DNA of 46,776 nt from contig SVRG01000005.1 of the NCBI GenBank assembly GCA_015064965.1, forward strand, positions 1-46,776, given 5' to 3'. Under the pieces are notes generated by a model that was given only the letters and a program-made list of their open reading frames with translations, was not told where the DNA came from and made no database searches. This document shows, one piece after another, positions 5,775-15,509 of the stretch; the first letter of the stretch is position 1; each line of letters begins with the position of its first letter. Made by a program: the position numbers and the translations under genes. This DNA comes from Oscillospiraceae bacterium. Lineage in GTDB: Bacteria > Bacillota > Clostridia > Oscillospirales > CAG-272.

Positions 5775-5790
5775 TTTAAAACAAATAGAA

Positions 5791-5815
5791 ACCTCCGCTT
5801 TTGCGGAGGTTTTTT
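5791..5815 (+). terminator. Intrinsic terminator downstream of gap
   Basis: ACCTCCGC-TTTT-GCGGAGGTTTTTT. Confidence 0.88.
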
Positions 5816-5900: not shown

Positions 5901-6254
5901 ATGAAAATATCTAAAATTGTTGAACTTCTTGATGCAAAGGTACTTTGCGGAGAGGAGCTGCTTGAAAACGAGGTTCACTCTGCATGCGGCAGTGACATGA
6001 TGAGCGACGTGCTTGCATTTGTAAAAGATCAGGCGGTGCTGCTTACCGGTCTTGTTAATTTGCAGGTTGTACGCACTGCAGCGATGATGGACATGCGCTG
6101 TGTTGTATTTGTGCGTGGCAAGAACCCCGGCGACGATATTGTTGAATTTGCTAAAGACAATGATATAGTGGTACTTGCAACTGCGGAGAGAATGTATCCC
6201 GCATGCGGTAAGCTTTATGCAAACGGACTTGTCGGCGGCTCACTTCACGCCTGA
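5901..6254 (+). CDS. DRTGG domain-like protein (hydrogenase locus)
   Basis: 117 aa, KISKIVELLDAKVLCGEELL...VLLTGLVNLQVVRTAAMMDMRCVVFVRGKNP; resembles the small DRTGG proteins found near clostridial hydrogenases. Confidence 0.75.
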   Translation: MKISKIVELLDAKVLCGEELLENEVHSACGSDMMSDVLAFVKDQAVLLTGLVNLQVVRTAAMMDMRCVVFVRGKNPGDDIVEFAKDNDIVVLATAERMYPACGKLYANGLVGGSLHA

Positions 6255-6265
6255 GGAGGTGCAAA

Positions 6266-6688
6266 ATGAGTACACCGTTAAAACTTCATTATGATGTAAA
6301 CGGCGAGGACTTTACATCTGCAGGTAATGCGTCCGTGCAGGCTAAAAAAGCACTTCGCCAGCTCGGTTATGATCCCGATATAATTCGCCGCGTTGCTATA
6401 GCAATGTATGAGGGCGAAATCAACATGGTTATTCACGCTGACGGCGGAGATGCCGATATTATCGTATATCCTGATTACATAGAGATTGTTTTAGCCGACA
6501 AAGGCCCTGGAATTCCCGATGTTTCAAAGGCAATGCAGGAGGGCTTTTCAACCGCTCCGGATAATATCCGTTCACTCGGATTTGGTGCCGGCATGGGACT
6601 TCCGAATATGAAAAAACATACTGATGATATGAAGATTGACACTGTAATAGGAGAGGGAACTACCATAACTATGCGTGTCAACACATAG
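6266..6688 (+). CDS. ATP-binding protein, RsbW/SpoIIAB-like HATPase
   Basis: YPDYIEIVLADKGPGIPDVSKAMQEGFSTA...SLGFGAGMGLPNMKKHTDDM carries GHKL N/G-box features. Confidence 0.85.
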   Translation: MSTPLKLHYDVNGEDFTSAGNASVQAKKALRQLGYDPDIIRRVAIAMYEGEINMVIHADGGDADIIVYPDYIEIVLADKGPGIPDVSKAMQEGFSTAPDNIRSLGFGAGMGLPNMKKHTDDMKIDTVIGEGTTITMRVNT

Positions 6689-6697
6689 GAGAAAGTG

Positions 6698-8008
6698 ATG
6701 ACAGAGAAAATAAATCACTCCGTATTGCTTGATGTAGATAAATGCAAGGGCTGCACATATTGCCTTAAGCGCTGTCCTACCGAAGCCATACGAATACGAA
6801 ACGGCCATGCCGTTATTCGTGCGGAAAGGTGTATAGACTGCGGCGAATGTATCAGAGTATGTCCTCATCAGGCAAAGACTGCGGATTTTGACCGTCTTGA
6901 AGATTTTAAAGACTATAAATGGAAAATTGCACTCCCAGCACCTGCGCTCTACGGTCAGTTTGATCGCCTTGATGACCTTGATTATGTTGTTTCCGGATTG
7001 CTTGAATGCGGTTTTGACGATGTGTTTGAGGTTGCACGCGCGGCAGAAATTGTTTCCGAATGTACACGTGAGTATCTCAAACGCGATGATATTCCAAAGC
7101 CGGTGATAAGCTCTGCCTGCCCTTCAGTAGTGCGTCTTATCAGCGTGCGTTTCCCATATTTGCTCGACAATGTGCTTCCCATTTTGCCGCCCGTGGAGGT
7201 TGCTGCGCGTATGGCAAAAGAGGAGGCTATGAAAAAGCATCCCGAACTCAAAGAAGAGGATATTTGCGCATTGTTTATTTCGCCTTGCCCTGCAAAAGTC
7301 AGCTACGTGAGAAATCCGCTTGGCACAGAGAAAAGCAAGGTTGACGGCGTGCTTGCGATCCGTGATATCTACTTTAAACTTGTCAGCGCTATGAATAAAA
7401 TTCAGTTCCCTGAAAGCGACTCCAAAACCGGTAGGATCGGCGTGAGCTGGGCGGGTACCGGCGGTGAAAGCTCGGCGCTTCTCAATGACAAGTATCTTGC
7501 CGCAGACGGAATTGAAAACGTTATTAAAGTGCTTGATGAGATTGAAAAAGAAAACTTCGCAGGCCTTGAGTTTATTGAACTCAATTCTTGCAACGGCGGA
7601 TGTGTTGGCGGTGCGCTCAATGTTGAAAATCCGTATATCGCCCGCGCAAGACTGCACATTATGCGCCGTTATCTCCCTGTTACAAAGACAAAAAGTGAAA
7701 ATAGCGATACAGACTCTCTGCTTTGGGATGCCGAGGTTGAGTACAATCCTGTATTAAAGCTCGATAGTGACCGAGCAGAGGCCATGCGCAAGATGCAAAA
7801 GATTCAGACCATAACAAAGTGCTTTCCGCAGATTGACTGCGGCTCGTGCGGCGCGCCTACGTGTGCGGCACTTGCCGAGGATATTGTTCGCGGCGAGGCA
7901 CATGAGGATGACTGCATTATCGAGATGCGCCGACAGATTCATTCAATCTATGACCATCTTGGCAAGATAGTGCATGAAACTTATAATCCCCCGGAGGATA
8001 AAGAATGA
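6698..8008 (+). CDS. [FeFe]-hydrogenase-like protein with 4Fe-4S ferredoxin domain and C-terminal 4-Cys Fe-S domain (putative sensory type)
   Basis: CKGCTYCLKRCP and CIDCGECIRVCP; divergent H-cluster motifs SSACPSV, SPCPAK, SCNGGCVGG; C-terminal DCGSCGAPTCAALAEDI. ATG at 6698 or upstream at 6695. Confidence 0.85.
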   Translation: MTEKINHSVLLDVDKCKGCTYCLKRCPTEAIRIRNGHAVIRAERCIDCGECIRVCPHQAKTADFDRLEDFKDYKWKIALPAPALYGQFDRLDDLDYVVSGLLECGFDDVFEVARAAEIVSECTREYLKRDDIPKPVISSACPSVVRLISVRFPYLLDNVLPILPPVEVAARMAKEEAMKKHPELKEEDICALFISPCPAKVSYVRNPLGTEKSKVDGVLAIRDIYFKLVSAMNKIQFPESDSKTGRIGVSWAGTGGESSALLNDKYLAADGIENVIKVLDEIEKENFAGLEFIELNSCNGGCVGGALNVENPYIARARLHIMRRYLPVTKTKSENSDTDSLLWDAEVEYNPVLKLDSDRAEAMRKMQKIQTITKCFPQIDCGSCGAPTCAALAEDIVRGEAHEDDCIIEMRRQIHSIYDHLGKIVHETYNPPEDKE

Positions 8009-8331
8009 CAGTAAAAGAATTTGCAGAAAAACTTGGTTTGAAAGTGCTTACAATGCCTGACGGCGACAGGGAAGTGACCTGTGGCTACGCGGGCGACCTG
8101 CTTAGCTGGGTAATGGGCAAAGCGCCGAGCGATGCTGCGTGGTTTACAATTATGTCCAACGTCAATATCGTGGCGGTTGCAATGCTGCGTGATGTTGCGG
8201 CGATCGTTGTTTGTGAAGGTGCGGAAATCGGCGAAGATGTAATTGCACGCGCCGCCGAGCAGGACGTAAACCTGCTCCTCAGTGATAAAGGTATATACGA
8301 AAACTGCACTGAACTTGCAAAGATGATATAA
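8005..8331 (+). CDS. DRTGG domain-like protein, second copy
   Basis: 108 aa, overlaps the upstream stop; KEFAEKLGLKVLTMPDGDREVTCGYAGDLLSWVMGKAPSDAAWFTIMSNVNIVAVAMLRDVAAIVV. Confidence 0.78.
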   Translation: MTVKEFAEKLGLKVLTMPDGDREVTCGYAGDLLSWVMGKAPSDAAWFTIMSNVNIVAVAMLRDVAAIVVCEGAEIGEDVIARAAEQDVNLLLSDKGIYENCTELAKMI

Positions 8332-8341
8332 CTAAACTATC

Positions 8342-8448
8342 TGTCATCCTGAGCGAATGCGAAGGATCTGCGTGCGTAGCGAGTCTTATGCAAGAAAAAT
8401 CTCGATTTTATCGAGATTTTCGGATTCTTCACCGCGTTCGGAATGACA
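8342..8448. repeat. Short palindromic dispersed-repeat-like element (MITE/REP type)
   Basis: Ends TGTCATCCTGAGCGAA... and ...TTCGGAATGACA are imperfect terminal inverted repeats; internal AAAATCTCGA-ttttа-free loop (TTTTA)-TCGAGATTTT stem. Sequence resembles a GTCATCCTGAGCGAA repeat common in bacterial intergenic regions. Confidence 0.65.
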
Positions 8449-8469
8449 AAAATGAAGGAGGGAATACAT

Positions 8470-9207
8470 ATGCCAAAATTCTACTATGATCTACATATGC
8501 ATTCCTGCCTTTCGCCGTGTGCAGACGATGATATGACACCTGTGACAATGGCAGGAATTGCCGCGCTCAACGGGCTTAACATAGCGGCGCTTACCGACCA
8601 TAATTCCTGCGGAAACTTGCCTGCATTTTTTGCGGCTTGTCGCGCATACGGAGTAACTCCGATTGCAGGAATGGAGCTTGAAACTGCAGAAAGCGTACAT
8701 GTTGTATGCCTTTTTGAGGAATATGACAACGCAATGAGGTTTTGGCAGACGGTAAAAGATAACTACATGATGCCGTTTAAAAATGACGTTGCAATGTTTG
8801 GCGGTCAGTATTATATGAATGAGGATGACGAGGTAACGGGCACCGAGGAGATTTTGCTTATAAACTCCACAACGCTTTCGCTTGACGAGGGTGTTGCTCT
8901 TGCGCGTGAGCATGGTGCATTTGTTTTTCCTGCGCATATCGACCGAACATCAAACGGAATAATTGCCGTGCTTGGCGATATTCCGCCGGAACCCGGCTTT
9001 ACCGCGGTGGAATTCAATGACAGTGCAAACGTTGATGAGTACCGTGAAAAGTATTCCGAGGTGAAAAATGCACTTGTGCTTGTAGACTCGGATGCACACC
9101 GTGTAACAAGTATAAATGAGGCGGTGAACTTCATTGAGCTTGATGCTGACCCCACTGATGAAGATGCCGTAAGAAAAGCATTTTTTGAATACTTGAGAAA
9201 AGGATGA
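8470..9207 (+). CDS. PHP domain-containing protein
   Basis: YYDLHMHSCLSPCADDDMTPVTM, ALTDHNSCGNLPAF, FPAHIDR, VDSDAHRV; RBS AAGGAGGG precedes ATG 8470. Confidence 0.9.
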   Translation: MPKFYYDLHMHSCLSPCADDDMTPVTMAGIAALNGLNIAALTDHNSCGNLPAFFAACRAYGVTPIAGMELETAESVHVVCLFEEYDNAMRFWQTVKDNYMMPFKNDVAMFGGQYYMNEDDEVTGTEEILLINSTTLSLDEGVALAREHGAFVFPAHIDRTSNGIIAVLGDIPPEPGFTAVEFNDSANVDEYREKYSEVKNALVLVDSDAHRVTSINEAVNFIELDADPTDEDAVRKAFFEYLRKG

Positions 9208-9212
9208 AAAAT

Positions 9213-10241
9213 ATGAAAAAGTTTTTTGTAATATTTTTAGCGGGGTTGTTATTAGTTTTTTTATGTGCATGTAACAATGATATCGCCATAGAAGGAACAG
9301 CAGAAAACGCTGAAACAACAGCACACACAACCGAGGTTACCACAGCGCCTATTATCGTTGATTTTTCGCAGAGATTTGATGAACTGTTTGACTATGGAGA
9401 TTTTGAAGTTTCAATCTATGACGGTTATGCTTCGGTAGGATACTATGGAGATGCCACATCTGTGACTATCCCTGCTGAGATTAGAGGATATAAGGTAATC
9501 GCTGTTAGAGGCTTTGGAGTGGGTGTAAATAACATAACCAATATAGAATTACCAGATACAATAACAACAATCAGAGATGAAGCGTTCTGCAATTGCAAGG
9601 CTCTTACAAGCATAACAATTCCAGATAGCGTAGTTGTTATTGAAGAAGATGCATTTAGGGGATGCAGATCGCTTACAAATATAACCATACCTGACAGTGT
9701 AACTATTATAGAGAGCAATGCGTTCCGTGATTGTACTTCTCTTACAGATGTTAAACTTTCGAACAATTTATCAACAATTGAATATGCTACATTTAGAGAT
9801 TGTACATCGCTTGAAAATGTAGATTTTTCAGGCGGTGTAGAAACAATTGGAGATAGCGCATTTGAAAATTGTACATCTCTTGCAAGTATAGTGCTTTCAA
9901 AGAGTACGACAACGATTGCAGAACACGCATTTGAGAATTGCACATCTCTAAAAAGTGTAAAGTTTTCAGATAGTGTAACAACGATAGGTTTAGAAGCGTT
10001 TTCGAATTGCACATCGCTTGAAAATGTAGAACTTTCAAATGGTGTGACGACAATAGGGCGAAATTCGTTTACAAACTGTCCGTCGCTTAAGTGGATTAAG
10101 ATTCCTGACAGCGTGACGACGATAGGCGATGTGATTTCTGGCGCTTTTGATAATGACATTGTTACATTTAAGTGTAAAGCAGGTTCTTATGCAGAAGAAT
10201 ATGCCAAGAACAATAATATAAAATACGAGATATACAAGTAA
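9213..10241 (+). CDS. BspA-type leucine-rich repeat lipoprotein
   Basis: Lipoprotein signal MKKFFVIFLAGLLLVFLCAC; tandem about 23-aa repeats of the form LTSITIPDSVVVIEEDAFRGCRS. Confidence 0.9.
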   Translation: MKKFFVIFLAGLLLVFLCACNNDIAIEGTAENAETTAHTTEVTTAPIIVDFSQRFDELFDYGDFEVSIYDGYASVGYYGDATSVTIPAEIRGYKVIAVRGFGVGVNNITNIELPDTITTIRDEAFCNCKALTSITIPDSVVVIEEDAFRGCRSLTNITIPDSVTIIESNAFRDCTSLTDVKLSNNLSTIEYATFRDCTSLENVDFSGGVETIGDSAFENCTSLASIVLSKSTTTIAEHAFENCTSLKSVKFSDSVTTIGLEAFSNCTSLENVELSNGVTTIGRNSFTNCPSLKWIKIPDSVTTIGDVISGAFDNDIVTFKCKAGSYAEEYAKNNNIKYEIYK

Positions 10242-10482: not shown

Positions 10483-10977
10483 ATGAAAAAGCAATTGACT
10501 CAGGTCGAATTTCGCGGCACAAAAGAGCAGGAAGCAAAGCTCCTCGAAATTATCGACGCTCACAAGAATGAGAGAGGCGCAATGATGCCTATTCTTCAGC
10601 AGGCTCAGGAAGTCTACGGTTATCTTCCCGTAGAGGTTATGCAGATTATTGCAAAACACACCGGCAAGCCCGTTGAGGAGATTTTCGGTATCGCAACATT
10701 CTACTCTCAGTTTGCACTCAACCCTAAGGGTGAGGTTGCAGTGGCAGTATGTCTTGGTACTGCTTGCTACGTTAAGGGTAGCGGTGACATTTATGAAAAG
10801 TTTGGCGAAGAACTCGGTCTTGTAGGCGGCGGCACAACTCCCGATGGCAAGTGGTCTCTCGAAGCAACACGTTGCATCGGTGCATGTGGTCTTGCACCTG
10901 TTCTGACTGTTAACGGCAACGTTTACGGCAGACTTACTACAAAAGACGTTCCTAACATTATCGCAGAGTATAAATAA
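10483..10977 (+). CDS. NuoE-like 2Fe-2S hydrogenase subunit (HndA/HydC-like)
   Basis: GYLPVEVMQIIAKHTGKPVEEIFGIATFYSQF, VCLGTACYVKGS, EATRCIGACGLAPVLTVNGNVYG. Confidence 0.93.
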   Translation: MKKQLTQVEFRGTKEQEAKLLEIIDAHKNERGAMMPILQQAQEVYGYLPVEVMQIIAKHTGKPVEEIFGIATFYSQFALNPKGEVAVAVCLGTACYVKGSGDIYEKFGEELGLVGGGTTPDGKWSLEATRCIGACGLAPVLTVNGNVYGRLTTKDVPNIIAEYK

Positions 10978-10983
10978 TTCTTT

Positions 10984-11538
10984 ATGAAAGAGTTATCGCT
11001 GAATATTCTCGATATCACTCAGAACTCTATTACGGCGCGTGCAAAAAACATTCTCATTTCGCTTGTTGAAAACGATGACGGCTGGCTCACGCTCACCATC
11101 ACCGATGACGGCTGCGGCATGAGCGAGGAAACACTGCGCACAGTAATGGATCCGTTTTATACAACGCGTACTACAAGAAAGGTTGGTATGGGCATTCCGC
11201 TTTTGAAACTCGCATGTGAGCAGACGGGCGGTGCGCTTAACATTGTTTCAAAGGATGAAAAGAATTATCCCGATGAACATGGCACTACAGTGTGTGCCAC
11301 CTTTGATACAAAGCACATAGACATGACGCCGGTTGGCGATATGATATCCACAATAGAGGTGCTTTTACAAGGGCATCCCGAGGTTGATTACCTTTATGTG
11401 CATAAAACTCCGCGCTTTAACGTGGAGATGGACACAAAAGAGCTTCGCGCAGTGCTTGGCGATATTTCGCTTGGCGAGCCGGAGATCTTGCAGTGGGTAC
11501 GCGGCTTCTTAGGCGAACAATATGATTTATCTGAATAA
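10984..11538 (+). CDS. ATP-binding (HATPase) protein within hydrogenase operon
   Basis: LSLNILDITQNSITARAKNI, ITDDGCGMSEETLRTVMDPFYTTRTTRKVGMGIPLLK. Confidence 0.88.
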   Translation: MKELSLNILDITQNSITARAKNILISLVENDDGWLTLTITDDGCGMSEETLRTVMDPFYTTRTTRKVGMGIPLLKLACEQTGGALNIVSKDEKNYPDEHGTTVCATFDTKHIDMTPVGDMISTIEVLLQGHPEVDYLYVHKTPRFNVEMDTKELRAVLGDISLGEPEILQWVRGFLGEQYDLSE

Positions 11539-11555
11539 TTTTGGAGGTGTAAACC

Positions 11556-11921
11556 ATGAAATCTTTAGCAGAACTTGCAGCAATTAAAGCAAAAATGCAG
11601 GATAAGGTTGCTATGCGTGAGGGCAGCGGTAATGTAAGAGTAGTTGTTGGTATGGCTACTTGCGGTATCGCAGCAGGTGCACGTCCCGTACTCTCCGCTT
11701 TCGTTGAAGCGGTTAGCGCAGCAGGCCTTTCCGAAAAGGTTACCGTTACACAGACAGGCTGTATCGGTATTTGTCAGTACGAGCCCGTTGTAGAGATTTT
11801 CGAAGACGGCAAGGAAAAGGTTACATACGTTAAGATGGATGCAGACAAGGCAAAGCGCGTTGTTGAAGAACACATCAAGGGCGGCAAGATTGTAACCGAT
11901 TATGTTATTGGTAATAAATAA
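11556..11921 (+). CDS. (2Fe-2S) ferredoxin domain-containing protein (HndB-like)
   Basis: VVVGMATCGIAAGARPVLSAF, VTQTGCIGICQYEPVVEI. Confidence 0.9.
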   Translation: MKSLAELAAIKAKMQDKVAMREGSGNVRVVVGMATCGIAAGARPVLSAFVEAVSAAGLSEKVTVTQTGCIGICQYEPVVEIFEDGKEKVTYVKMDADKAKRVVEEHIKGGKIVTDYVIGNK

Positions 11922-11939
11922 TTAAACGGAGGAAATAAA

Positions 11940-13751
11940 ATGATTCGCACACATGTATTGATTTGCGGCGGTACCGGTTGTACTTCCTCCGGAAGTTTGG
12001 CTCTCAAAGAGACTCTTGAAAAAGAGCTCGCAGCAAAGGGCCTTACCGAAGAAGTAAAAATCGTTATCACAGGTTGTTTCGGTCTTTGTGCTCTCGGTCC
12101 GGTTATGATCGTATACCCCGACGGCACATTCTATAGCATGGTTAAGCCCGAGGATATTCCCGAGATCGTTGATGAGCACCTTCTCAAGGGCCGTCCCGTA
12201 GCTCGTCTTGAGTATCACGAGGCAGGCGAGAAGGAAGCTGTTTCTTCTCTCTCAGAAACCAAGTTCTATTCCAAGCAGAAGCGCGTTGCGCTCCGCAACT
12301 GCGGTGTTATCAACCCTGAAAACATCGAAGAGTATATCGCAAGAGACGGTTATGCAGCTCTCGGTAAGGCTCTCACAGAGATGACCCCTGAAGCTGTAAT
12401 TCAGACCGTTCTTGATTCCGGTCTCCGCGGACGCGGCGGCGGCGGATTCCCCACCGGCAGAAAGTGGGACCTCGCTCGCAAGCTCGTTCAGGGCGGTCAG
12501 AAGTATGTTGCATGTAACGCAGACGAGGGCGACCCCGGCGCGTTCATGGACCGTTCCATTCTTGAAGGTGACCCCCATGCACTTATCGAAGCAATGGCTA
12601 TCGCAGGCTATGCTATCGGCGCAAGTGAGGGTTATGTATATGTTCGTGCAGAGTATCCTATTGCTGTACAGCGTCTCCAGATCGCTATTGATCAGGCTCG
12701 CGAATACGGTCTCCTCGGCAAGGACATCTTTGGCACCGGCTTTGAATTTGATATGTTTATCCGTCTCGGCGCAGGCGCATTTGTATGCGGCGAAGAGACT
12801 GCTCTTATGACCTCTATTGAAGGTAACCGCGGCGAGCCTCGTCCCCGTCCTCCGTTCCCTGCAGAAAAGGGTCTTTACGGTAAACCTACCGTTCTTAACA
12901 ACGTAGAAACATATGCAAACATTCCTCAGATCATCCTCAACGGTTCTGATTGGTTTGCTTCCATGGGTACTGAAAAGTCCAAGGGTACCAAGGTATTTGC
13001 TCTCGGCGGTAAGATCACCAATACCGGTCTTGTTGAGATTCCTATGGGTACCACTCTCCGCGAAGTTATCGAGGATATCGGCGGCGGCATTCCCAACGGT
13101 AAGAAGTTCAAGGCTGCACAGACCGGTGGTCCTTCCGGCGGATGTATCCCTGCTCACCTTATCGACACTCCCATCGACTACGACAACCTTATCGCTCTCG
13201 GCTCCATGATGGGCTCCGGCGGACTTATCGTTATGGACGAGGACAACTGTATGGTTGACATCGCAAGATTCTTCCTTGATTTCACAGTTGATGAATCTTG
13301 CGGTAAGTGCACACCTTGCCGTATCGGTACCAAGCGTATGCTTGAAATTCTTGACAAAATTATCGCAGGTAAGGGCGAACTCGAAGATATCGACAGACTT
13401 GAAGAACTTGCACAGTATATCAAGGCAGGTTCTCTCTGCGGTCTCGGACAGACTGCTCCTAACCCTGTTCTTTCCACTCTCCAGTACTTCCGCGACGAGT
13501 ACATTGCACACGTTGTGGATAAGAAGTGTCCTGCAGGCGTATGTAAGAGCCTCCTCAGCTTCACTATCGACAAGGATAAGTGTATCGGTTGCGGACTCTG
13601 TGCAAAGAACTGCCCTGTTAACGCTATCGAAAGAACTGATTACATCGCTCCCGGCCACAAGCTCGCATCCTTTACTATTGATGCAGCTAAGTGCGTAAAG
13701 TGCGGCGTATGTATGAGCAACTGCCGTCCTAAGGCAATTGAGAAGAAATAA
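11940..13751 (+). CDS. NuoF-like hydrogenase subunit (HndC/HydB-like)
   Basis: GLRGRGGGGFPTGRKWDLA, NADEGDPGAFMDRSILE, ESCGKCTPCRIGTKRM, plus C-terminal 2x[4Fe-4S] CIGCGLCAKNCP and CVKCGVCMSNC. Confidence 0.97.
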   Translation: MIRTHVLICGGTGCTSSGSLALKETLEKELAAKGLTEEVKIVITGCFGLCALGPVMIVYPDGTFYSMVKPEDIPEIVDEHLLKGRPVARLEYHEAGEKEAVSSLSETKFYSKQKRVALRNCGVINPENIEEYIARDGYAALGKALTEMTPEAVIQTVLDSGLRGRGGGGFPTGRKWDLARKLVQGGQKYVACNADEGDPGAFMDRSILEGDPHALIEAMAIAGYAIGASEGYVYVRAEYPIAVQRLQIAIDQAREYGLLGKDIFGTGFEFDMFIRLGAGAFVCGEETALMTSIEGNRGEPRPRPPFPAEKGLYGKPTVLNNVETYANIPQIILNGSDWFASMGTEKSKGTKVFALGGKITNTGLVEIPMGTTLREVIEDIGGGIPNGKKFKAAQTGGPSGGCIPAHLIDTPIDYDNLIALGSMMGSGGLIVMDEDNCMVDIARFFLDFTVDESCGKCTPCRIGTKRMLEILDKIIAGKGELEDIDRLEELAQYIKAGSLCGLGQTAPNPVLSTLQYFRDEYIAHVVDKKCPAGVCKSLLSFTIDKDKCIGCGLCAKNCPVNAIERTDYIAPGHKLASFTIDAAKCVKCGVCMSNCRPKAIEKK

Positions 13752-13772
13752 GTGAAAGGAGAAAGAGAAATA

Positions 13773-15509
13773 ATGGAAACTGTAAACATTAAAATTAACG
13801 GCAGAGACTATGCAGTTGAGAAGGGCATGACCGTTCTTGAAGCTTGTCGTTATGCCGGCATTGATATCCCGACACTTTGCTATCTCAAGGATATTAACGA
13901 AATCGGCGCATGCCGTCTTTGCCTTGTTGAGGTAAAGGGCGCTCGCGGACTTGTTACCGCTTGCGTATACCCTGTAAATGAGGGTATGGAAATTACCACC
14001 AACTCCAAGAAGATTCGCGATTCCAGAAAGATGAACCTCGAGCTTCTTCTTTCCAACCATAAGAAGGACTGTCTCTCCTGCGTGCGCAGCACCACTTGTG
14101 AGCTTCAGAAGCTCTGCAACGAGTACGGTGTTGATGAGCATCACTTCGGCGGTGAGAGAACCGAGTATGAAATTGATGATTCTTCTGTATCCATCATCCG
14201 CGACAACAACAAGTGTATCCTCTGCCGTCGTTGCGTAGCTGCTTGTAAGACTATGCAGGGCATTGGTGTTATCGGCGCAAATGACCGTGGTTTCGACACT
14301 TCTATCGGTTCTGCATTCGGTCTTAACCTCGCTGACACTTCTTGTATCAACTGCGGTCAGTGCGTAGTTGCATGTCCTGTAGGCGCTCTTTATGAAAGAG
14401 ATGACACTGCAAAGGTATTTGACGCTATCGCAGATCCTGAAATGCATGTTGCAATCTGTGCTGCTCCTTCTGTTCGTGCACAGATCGGCGAGTGCTTCGG
14501 CTACGAGCCCGGCACCGACACTGAAGGCCAGATGGTTGCTGCTATGAAGCGCCTCGGCTTTGACGGTGTATATGACATGAACCTCACTGCAGACCTTACC
14601 ATTATGGAAGAAGCAACCGAGTTCCTCGGCAGAGTTAAGAATGGCGGCGCACTCCCCATGATTACCTCTTGTTCTCCCGGATGGATCAAGTTCTGCGAGC
14701 ACTATTTCCCTGAAATGACTGAAAACCTTTCTACTTGCAAGTCTCCTCAGCAGATGTTCGGTGCAACTTACAAGACTTACTATGCACAGAAGATGGGTCT
14801 TGACCCCAAGAAGATCTTCTTTGTATCTGTAATTCCTTGTACCGCTAAGAAGTTTGAGGTTGGCCGTCCCGACCAGTCCGCTGCAGGCGTTCCGGACGTT
14901 GACGTTGCTATTACCACAAGAGAACTTGCAAAGATGATTCAGGTTGCAGGTATTGACTTCCGCGGCCTCGCTGATGAAAAGTTTGACGTTCCGTTCGATA
15001 TCGGTTCGGGCGCAGGCGCAATCTTCGGTGCTACCGGTGGTGTTATGGAGGCTGCTCTCCGTACCGCTGCTGAAGTTATCGAAGGCAAGCCTCTCGAAAA
15101 ACTCGAGTTTGAGGATGTTCGTGGTACTGACGGTATCAAGCGCGCAACCTACAAGCTTGGCGACATTGAACTCAAGGTTGCTGTAGTTAGCGGCACTGCT
15201 AACGCAAAGGAACTTCTCACCAGAGTTCAGAATGGCGAAGAAGACGTACACTTTATCGAAGTTATGGCATGCCCCGGTGGTTGTGTAAACGGCGGCGGTC
15301 AGCCTTATCAGCCTGCAAAGGTTCGCAACAATGTAGACCTTCGCGCAGTTAGAGCAGCAGTTCTCTACACCGCTGATAAGAACATGGATCTCCGCAAGTC
15401 TCACGAGAACAGCGCGGTTAAGAAGCTCTATGATGAATTCTTCGGCGAGCCCAATAGCCACAAGGCTCATGAGATTCTCCACACTTCCTACATCAAGCGT
15501 GGTCTTTAA
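13773..15509 (+). CDS. NADH-dependent [FeFe] hydrogenase catalytic subunit (HndD/HydA-like)
   Basis: N-terminal 2Fe-2S ferredoxin; HKKDCLSCVRSTTC; 2x[4Fe-4S]; H-domain motifs TSCSPGW, IPCTAKKFE, EVMACPGGCVNGGGQP. ATG at 13773 preferred over GTG 13752. Confidence 0.96.
   Translation: METVNIKINGRDYAVEKGMTVLEACRYAGIDIPTLCYLKDINEIGACRLCLVEVKGARGLVTACVYPVNEGMEITTNSKKIRDSRKMNLELLLSNHKKDCLSCVRSTTCELQKLCNEYGVDEHHFGGERTEYEIDDSSVSIIRDNNKCILCRRCVAACKTMQGIGVIGANDRGFDTSIGSAFGLNLADTSCINCGQCVVACPVGALYERDDTAKVFDAIADPEMHVAICAAPSVRAQIGECFGYEPGTDTEGQMVAAMKRLGFDGVYDMNLTADLTIMEEATEFLGRVKNGGALPMITSCSPGWIKFCEHYFPEMTENLSTCKSPQQMFGATYKTYYAQKMGLDPKKIFFVSVIPCTAKKFEVGRPDQSAAGVPDVDVAITTRELAKMIQVAGIDFRGLADEKFDVPFDIGSGAGAIFGATGGVMEAALRTAAEVIEGKPLEKLEFEDVRGTDGIKRATYKLGDIELKVAVVSGTANAKELLTRVQNGEEDVHFIEVMACPGGCVNGGGQPYQPAKVRNNVDLRAVRAAVLYTADKNMDLRKSHENSAVKKLYDEFFGEPNSHKAHEILHTSYIKRGL

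Follow-up and report, generated by a model that had tools for sequence, protein, structure and literature searches.

The window analysed here is a stretch of 46,776 nucleotides (contig SVRG01000005.1 of assembly GCA_015064965.1, positions 1 to 46,776) from an Oscillospiraceae bacterium whose genome is available as a draft assembly of 2.06 Mb in 148 contigs. Between positions 5901 and 9207 it carries five open reading frames (ORFs) on the + strand, here named DRT1, HAT1, HydS, DRT2 and PHP, lying just upstream of a hydrogenase operon with the order hydC-HAT2-Fd-hydB-hydA. The original prediction had described a tight cluster of two DRTGG proteins, an RsbW-like ATPase, a divergent hydrogenase-like protein and a PHP protein next to catalytic hydrogenase genes; all of these ORFs were found there on the + strand, and their families were confirmed. 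The features of the locus, with lengths in amino acids (aa), are as follows.

5901..6254, + strand: DRT1, stand-alone DRTGG protein, 117 aa (PF07085, 8.8e-8; invariant D32 and S35)
6266..6688, + strand: HAT1, SpoIIAB/RsbW-like HATPase, 140 aa (PF13581, 1.2e-10; 1TIL alignment)
6695..8008, + strand: HydS, assigned to group D (M2e) [FeFe] hydrogenases, 437 aa, GTG start (Pfam, motifs, predicted model)
8005..8331, + strand: DRT2, second DRTGG protein, 108 aa (sub-threshold Pfam match; hhalign to DRT1)
8341..8450, no strand: dispersed repeat between DRT2 and PHP, resembling miniature inverted-repeat transposable elements or repetitive extragenic palindromes, outside the module (about 20 genome copies)
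8470..9207, + strand: PHP-family metal-dependent phosphoesterase-like protein, 245 aa (PF02811, 1.2e-11; model fold matches)
10483..15509, + strand: associated hydrogenase operon, hydC to hydA (Pfam/NCBIfam; recurrent module neighbours)
10483-10977, + strand: hydC
10984..11538, + strand: HAT2, histidine-kinase-type HATPase, 184 aa, with a conserved C-terminal tail (PF02518, 1.5e-14)
11556-11921, + strand: gene for a 2Fe-2S protein (Fd)
11940-13751, + strand: hydB
13752-15509, + strand: hydA, group A6

The start of DRT2 overlaps the stop of HydS (8005 versus 8008). The start of PHP was revised to the ATG at 8470, which is preceded by GGAGG, because the ORF start at 8443 falls inside the dispersed repeat and is a false start created by it. 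This repeat is about 109 bp long (TGTCATCCTGAGCGAA...TTCGGAATGACA), with about 20 copies of that length in its own genome.

The gene-neighbourhood survey showed that the module genes travel together. Among 148 genomes of the class, PHP was present in 69 of the 73 HydS-positive genomes and in none of the 75 HydS-negative ones, leaving four with HydS only, one of which (G066) has a weak HydS match (4.6e-41) that is probably not group D. Across the phylum HydS was matched in 121 of the 300 genomes searched, and PHP occurred in 113 of these as against 3 of the 179 HydS-negative genomes (eight with HydS only, 176 with neither). The corresponding Fisher p-values, 6.5e-38 for the class and 2e-68 for the phylum, treat genomes as independent and ignore kinship. 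Neighbours of HydS were counted in a class, a named and a phylum set of 69, 80 and 57 loci, respectively, with contig ends depressing the counts: HAT1 was near HydS in 67/69, 79/80 and 55/57 loci, DRT1 in 66/69, 78/80 and 48/57, DRT2 in 66/69, 78/80 and 52/57, PHP in 63/69, 77/80 and 47/57, and HAT2 in 53/69, 72/80 and 48/57. The order DRT1-HAT1-HydS-DRT2-PHP was kept in most loci and recurred in about 200, and the clustering is far above chance. The earlier statement that similar sets occur near clostridial [FeFe] hydrogenases was thus borne out, the genes forming a conserved unit tied to a bifurcating hydrogenase; a lack of conserved co-occurrence, which would have counted against the original prediction, was not what the survey found. 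In some families the whole module lies within the hyd operon, as hydC-[module]-HAT2-Fd-hydB-hydA (loci L038, L053 and L090 in our numbering), and in three genomes (G010, G015 and G021) PHP is off the HydS contig or away from HydS and a few kb upstream of hydA. Mirror-tree correlation was highest inside the module for DRT1 and HAT1 (0.75); as hyd operon genes correlate similarly, this signal is weak evidence.

Every ORF of the collected loci was also checked for a combination of two module domains in a single protein, fusions being counted by genome. A DRT1~HAT1 fusion of 267-270 aa was found in 8 genomes (families f98 and f150), a HydS~DRT2 fusion of 563 and 570 aa in 2 genomes of family f94, a HAT1~HydS fusion of 626 aa in one genome only, and a PHP~HAT2 fusion of 428 and 436 aa in 2 genomes of family f73, where five more genomes have PHP open frames of 380-435 aa as judged by frame length only. 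Both domains were found independently by Pfam in one example of each fusion type. The fusions join DRT1, HAT1, HydS and DRT2 in a chain and tie PHP to HAT2, which hints at the neighbouring proteins through which the signal may be relayed.

HydS matched Fe_hyd_lg_C (8.1e-31), Fer4 domains and the FeS domain PF04060 in Pfam, and has an H-domain flanked by two N-terminal [4Fe-4S] motifs and a C-terminal Cx2Cx4Cx16C domain; its predicted model, with a predicted local distance difference test score (pLDDT) of 88, matches [FeFe] hydrogenases. The proton-relay cysteine (C299) is replaced, giving SSACP in the window protein, and the M353 position is Ser, giving FISPC; most relatives have SSACP plus FITPC or FISPC. 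Replacement of C299 and a change of M353 to Ser or Thr are the published marks of group D (M2e), represented by TamHydS of Thermoanaerobacter mathranii (PMC8163306), and the protein that the original prediction called divergent is assigned to this putatively sensory group by domain and motif criteria. It resembles TamHydS in having no PAS domain, in the loss of the proton-relay cysteine and in the Ser at M353, and the two loci are alike in lying upstream of a bifurcating hydrogenase with a HATPase neighbour; however, the published locus combines the HATPase with an AraC regulator and leaves a DRTGG pair, PHP and HAT2 unmentioned (PMC8163306), whereas no AraC gene is present here. Sensory hydrogenases of group C (M2f), such as TmHydS, share the H-domain, the C-terminal FeS domain and an altered proton relay but possess a PAS domain, the mark of that group, for which Pfam gave no match on HydS; separate partner genes stand here instead. 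Of 201 relatives, 200 or 201 retain each of the four H-cluster ligands and twelve accessory cysteines (16 in total). Since the window genome encodes HydF and HydG, HydS could be matured. The closest named relatives are from uncultured Clostridia/Oscillospiraceae, many of ruminant-gut origin.

HAT1 matched HATPase_c_2 in Pfam (1.2e-10). Its best NCBIfam match was SpoIIAB (8.3e-14), at 51.7 bits against a cut-off of 135 bits and hence outside the family, and it reached 22.7 of the 145 bits required for RsbW; the closest solved structure was again SpoIIAB (1TIL, alignment 1.2e-7). Across 193 relatives E49, N53, D78, G80, G82 and G107-G111 are invariant, E49 occupying what we take, from the 1TIL alignment, to be the position of the catalytic Glu. 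By alignment HAT1 thus retains the SpoIIAB-type kinase residues, namely the catalytic Glu, the N-box Asn, the ATP-binding glycines and the ATP/Mg residues, while its ATP-lid region is aligned with 5 extra residues. Partner switching by the kinases SpoIIAB and RsbW also involves STAS antagonists and PP2C phosphatases; genes of neither kind were seen here, and the DRTGG and PHP proteins would fill those places. DRT2 scored 23.4 against the DRTGG profile, just under the 25.2-bit cut-off, but profile comparison shows its homology to DRT1 (hhalign 99.6%, E=1.5e-23). D32 and S35 of DRT1 are present in 184 of 184 relatives, and D31, S34, T48 and N54 of DRT2 are invariant. A D-x-x-S motif is common to both at homologous positions and invariant in 184 and 183 sequences, respectively; it may be where a phosphate is accepted or a ligand is bound. 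When the DRTGG profiles were compared with solved structures, the best matches left the D-x-x-S region uncovered. The predicted model of PHP (pLDDT 97) had its nearest folds in the PHP domain of EndoQ, BAD_1165 and RNase AM (YciV), with which it shares the fold and most metal ligands. It differs from these in its low identity (14-19%), in an invariant SPC after the HxH motif and in the tie of its gene to HydS. The metal-type His/Asp/Glu ligands checked are essentially invariant, and PHP has the fold and metal-binding set of a PHP phosphoesterase, in line with the phosphatase or phosphoesterase function proposed earlier, hydrolysis itself being a prediction. HAT2, the sixth associated gene, encodes an ATPase domain of the histidine-kinase type that lacks an accompanying HisKA domain and is followed by a conserved tail; as the HAT1 and HAT2 profiles cross-match, each protein was labelled by the higher score.

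Regulatory genes adjoin the module in several lineages. A Rex-like gene was nearby in 12 of the 57 phylum loci, and in L211 and its relatives it stands directly before the fused DRT1~HAT1 gene, the L211 protein having the CoA_binding and Put_DNA-bind_N domains found in Rex. In family f137 HAT1-HydS is preceded by a histidine kinase, which in L262 has dCache, GAF and PAS domains, and by a regulator that was checked in L216 and is of the OmpR type; PHP is located elsewhere in these genomes. In f94 the module is flanked by a protein of 778 aa that fuses hydrogenase, FeS, PAS, HisKA and HATPase parts, together with a sigma-54 regulator of the NtrC type. A chain of H-domain, FeS, PAS, HisKA and HATPase, as seen by Pfam in L240, lies next to the group D module at L240:13645-15978 and L283:13468-15771, with an NtrC-type sigma-54 response regulator after it. 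These neighbours support a signalling role and leave the output unfixed. In the window itself a scan for Rex operators (up to 3 mismatches) gave 6 matches against 4.9 expected, with none between 5775 and 5901, and so lends no support to direct control by Rex at this locus; the window genome encodes a Rex homologue elsewhere. A recurrent upstream gene of about 290 aa was considered as a regulator and rejected, since wherever it was checked it proved to encode a SPOR-domain protein. The SPOR domain was confirmed for the gene upstream of the module in L033, L254 and L249, and a similar membrane-type protein gene precedes DRT1 in L033, L036, L037, L044, L057, L061 and L254.

From the conservation, the co-occurrence, the fusions and the intact catalytic and metal sites we infer a physical complex with its signal, its kinase and phosphatase reactions, its target and its output. 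The products of the five genes and of HAT2 would form a soluble signalling complex with HydS at its centre. HydS would read H2 and/or the redox state of ferredoxin and send a conformational signal to HAT1, probably by direct contact. HAT1 as kinase and PHP as phosphoesterase would then set opposing states of both DRTGG proteins, perhaps through phosphorylation of the invariant serine common to DRT1 and DRT2, and the DRTGG proteins with HAT2 would adjust the activity or expression of HydABC. That HAT1 and PHP set the DRTGG state in an H2/redox-sensing complex to control HydABC is the reading we lean towards, if only slightly. The C-terminal cluster has been found not to be reduced by H2 (PMC13104023), in agreement with a signal that reaches bound partners through a change of conformation. 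The occurrence of the module inside hyd operons and a core with no DNA-binding protein lean towards enzyme-level control of HydABC, whereas the regulator neighbours lean towards transcriptional control. A more specific version, a partner-switching system of a new kind in which a SpoIIAB-like kinase phosphorylates the DRTGG proteins at their common D-x-x-S serine, with the hydrogenase as sensor, PHP as opposing phosphatase and control of the bifurcating hydrogenase in response to H2 or ferredoxin, is offered tentatively as a possibility on the less probable side.

Several observations weigh against the favoured H2/redox-sensing complex. The module is separate from hydABC in L040, L077 and L089, some genomes are without one module gene next to HydS, the f137 locus holds just HAT1-HydS, and the gene order may be partly due to common descent. 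The interaction and the kinase and phosphatase activities are deduced, and the output protein is not fixed. Furthermore, 14 of the 73 HydS genomes are without HydE, HydF or HydG above family cut-offs (G011, G015, G020, G023, G056, G063, G083, G084, G098, G101, G111, G128, G134 and G140), among them a single-contig assembly (G063) and several genomes more than 95% complete; H2 as the signal is therefore unproven. Twelve of the 14 have a group A HydA match, all H-cluster ligands of HydS are kept in the 13 aligned, and in a simple pattern check HydA from eleven of these genomes kept the second ligand motif and in most cases also the third. Either the maturases are too divergent to be detected, or the sensor can do without the complete cofactor. 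Substitution of the module for absent maturases was considered and rejected, since HydS is not enriched where maturases are absent: of 35 genomes with a group A match (a few of them weak) and without HydF and HydG, 12 have HydS and 23 do not.

The maturase-less genomes, the single-contig one included, speak for a rival reading, a ferredoxin or redox sensor that would not detect H2. It would read instead the redox state of its clusters, with an H-domain in which the complete cofactor may often be absent, and its output would tune the partition of ferredoxin and NADH (HydABC, Rnf). Rex is an NADH sensor, and its presence near the module in the phylum loci is consistent with such a role, as are Rnf-like runs beside the module in L055, L059, L068 and L241 (from gene lengths and labels). 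We nevertheless regard it as rather unlikely: the H-cluster ligands are invariant even in the maturase-less set, where the retained HydA motifs hint at undetected maturation, and TamHydS is H2-active in vitro (PMC8163306).

The original prediction had further proposed an anti-sigma-type HATPase. HAT1 does keep the SpoIIAB-type residues, and SpoIIAB is the closest to it among solved structures and NCBIfam models; the specific anti-sigma role, in which HAT1 would bind and release a sigma factor under the control of HydS, is not supported and is improbable. HAT1 falls below the SpoIIAB and RsbW cut-offs, no sigma-factor or STAS gene was seen beside the module (its neighbours being partly annotated and distant genes not searched), HAT1 is fused in relatives to DRT1 or HydS instead, and the adjacent transcription regulators are Rex or OmpR- and NtrC-type response regulators. 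A module that assembles or repairs HydA or its cofactor, in which the HATPases would be chaperone-like ATPases, would account for the constant link to hydABC and for HAT2 inside the hyd operon but is likewise improbable, as the module is not enriched where maturases are absent, HydS has a fully conserved H-domain of its own and the regulator neighbours point to signalling.

Group D hydrogenases, found upstream of bifurcating hydrogenases and near a kinase, have already been proposed as sensors (PMC3561251, PMC3608648, PMC8163306), and sensing as such is not new here. The literature searched, which covered few subscription papers, contained no account of a constant partnership with the DRTGG pair, PHP and HAT2, of the fusions or of the links to Rex and response regulators, so that priority is uncertain. 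Group D hydrogenases occur widely among anaerobic Bacillota-type genomes, the relay of their signal is the gap addressed here, and a 2026 paper called the identification of partners critical. Co-occurrence and fusions name HAT1, DRT1, DRT2, PHP and HAT2 as candidate partners and predict direct contacts, and the fusions, as natural single-chain constructs, make the question of signal relay testable by co-expression. If the module does control HydABC, it would be a point at which H2 output is set in fermentations of the gut and of industry.

Among the other features of the locus, a gene for a BspA-type leucine-rich-repeat lipoprotein-like protein (9204-10241) lies between PHP and hydC and overlaps the PHP stop; none was seen at this position in the other loci drawn. 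Rnf-like gene runs, recognized by gene lengths and profile labels only, adjoin the module in L055, L059, L060, L063, L066, L068, L238, L241 and L272. Promoter-like sites in the window numbered 14 against 10.5 expected, with no clear excess, and terminator-like sites 12 against 5.0 expected, one of them at 5787-5814 after the preceding gene. The L1 motif of the window HydA is TSCSPGW, like that of A. woodii HydA1 (7Q4V), with Ser at the position of the second cysteine of CpI.

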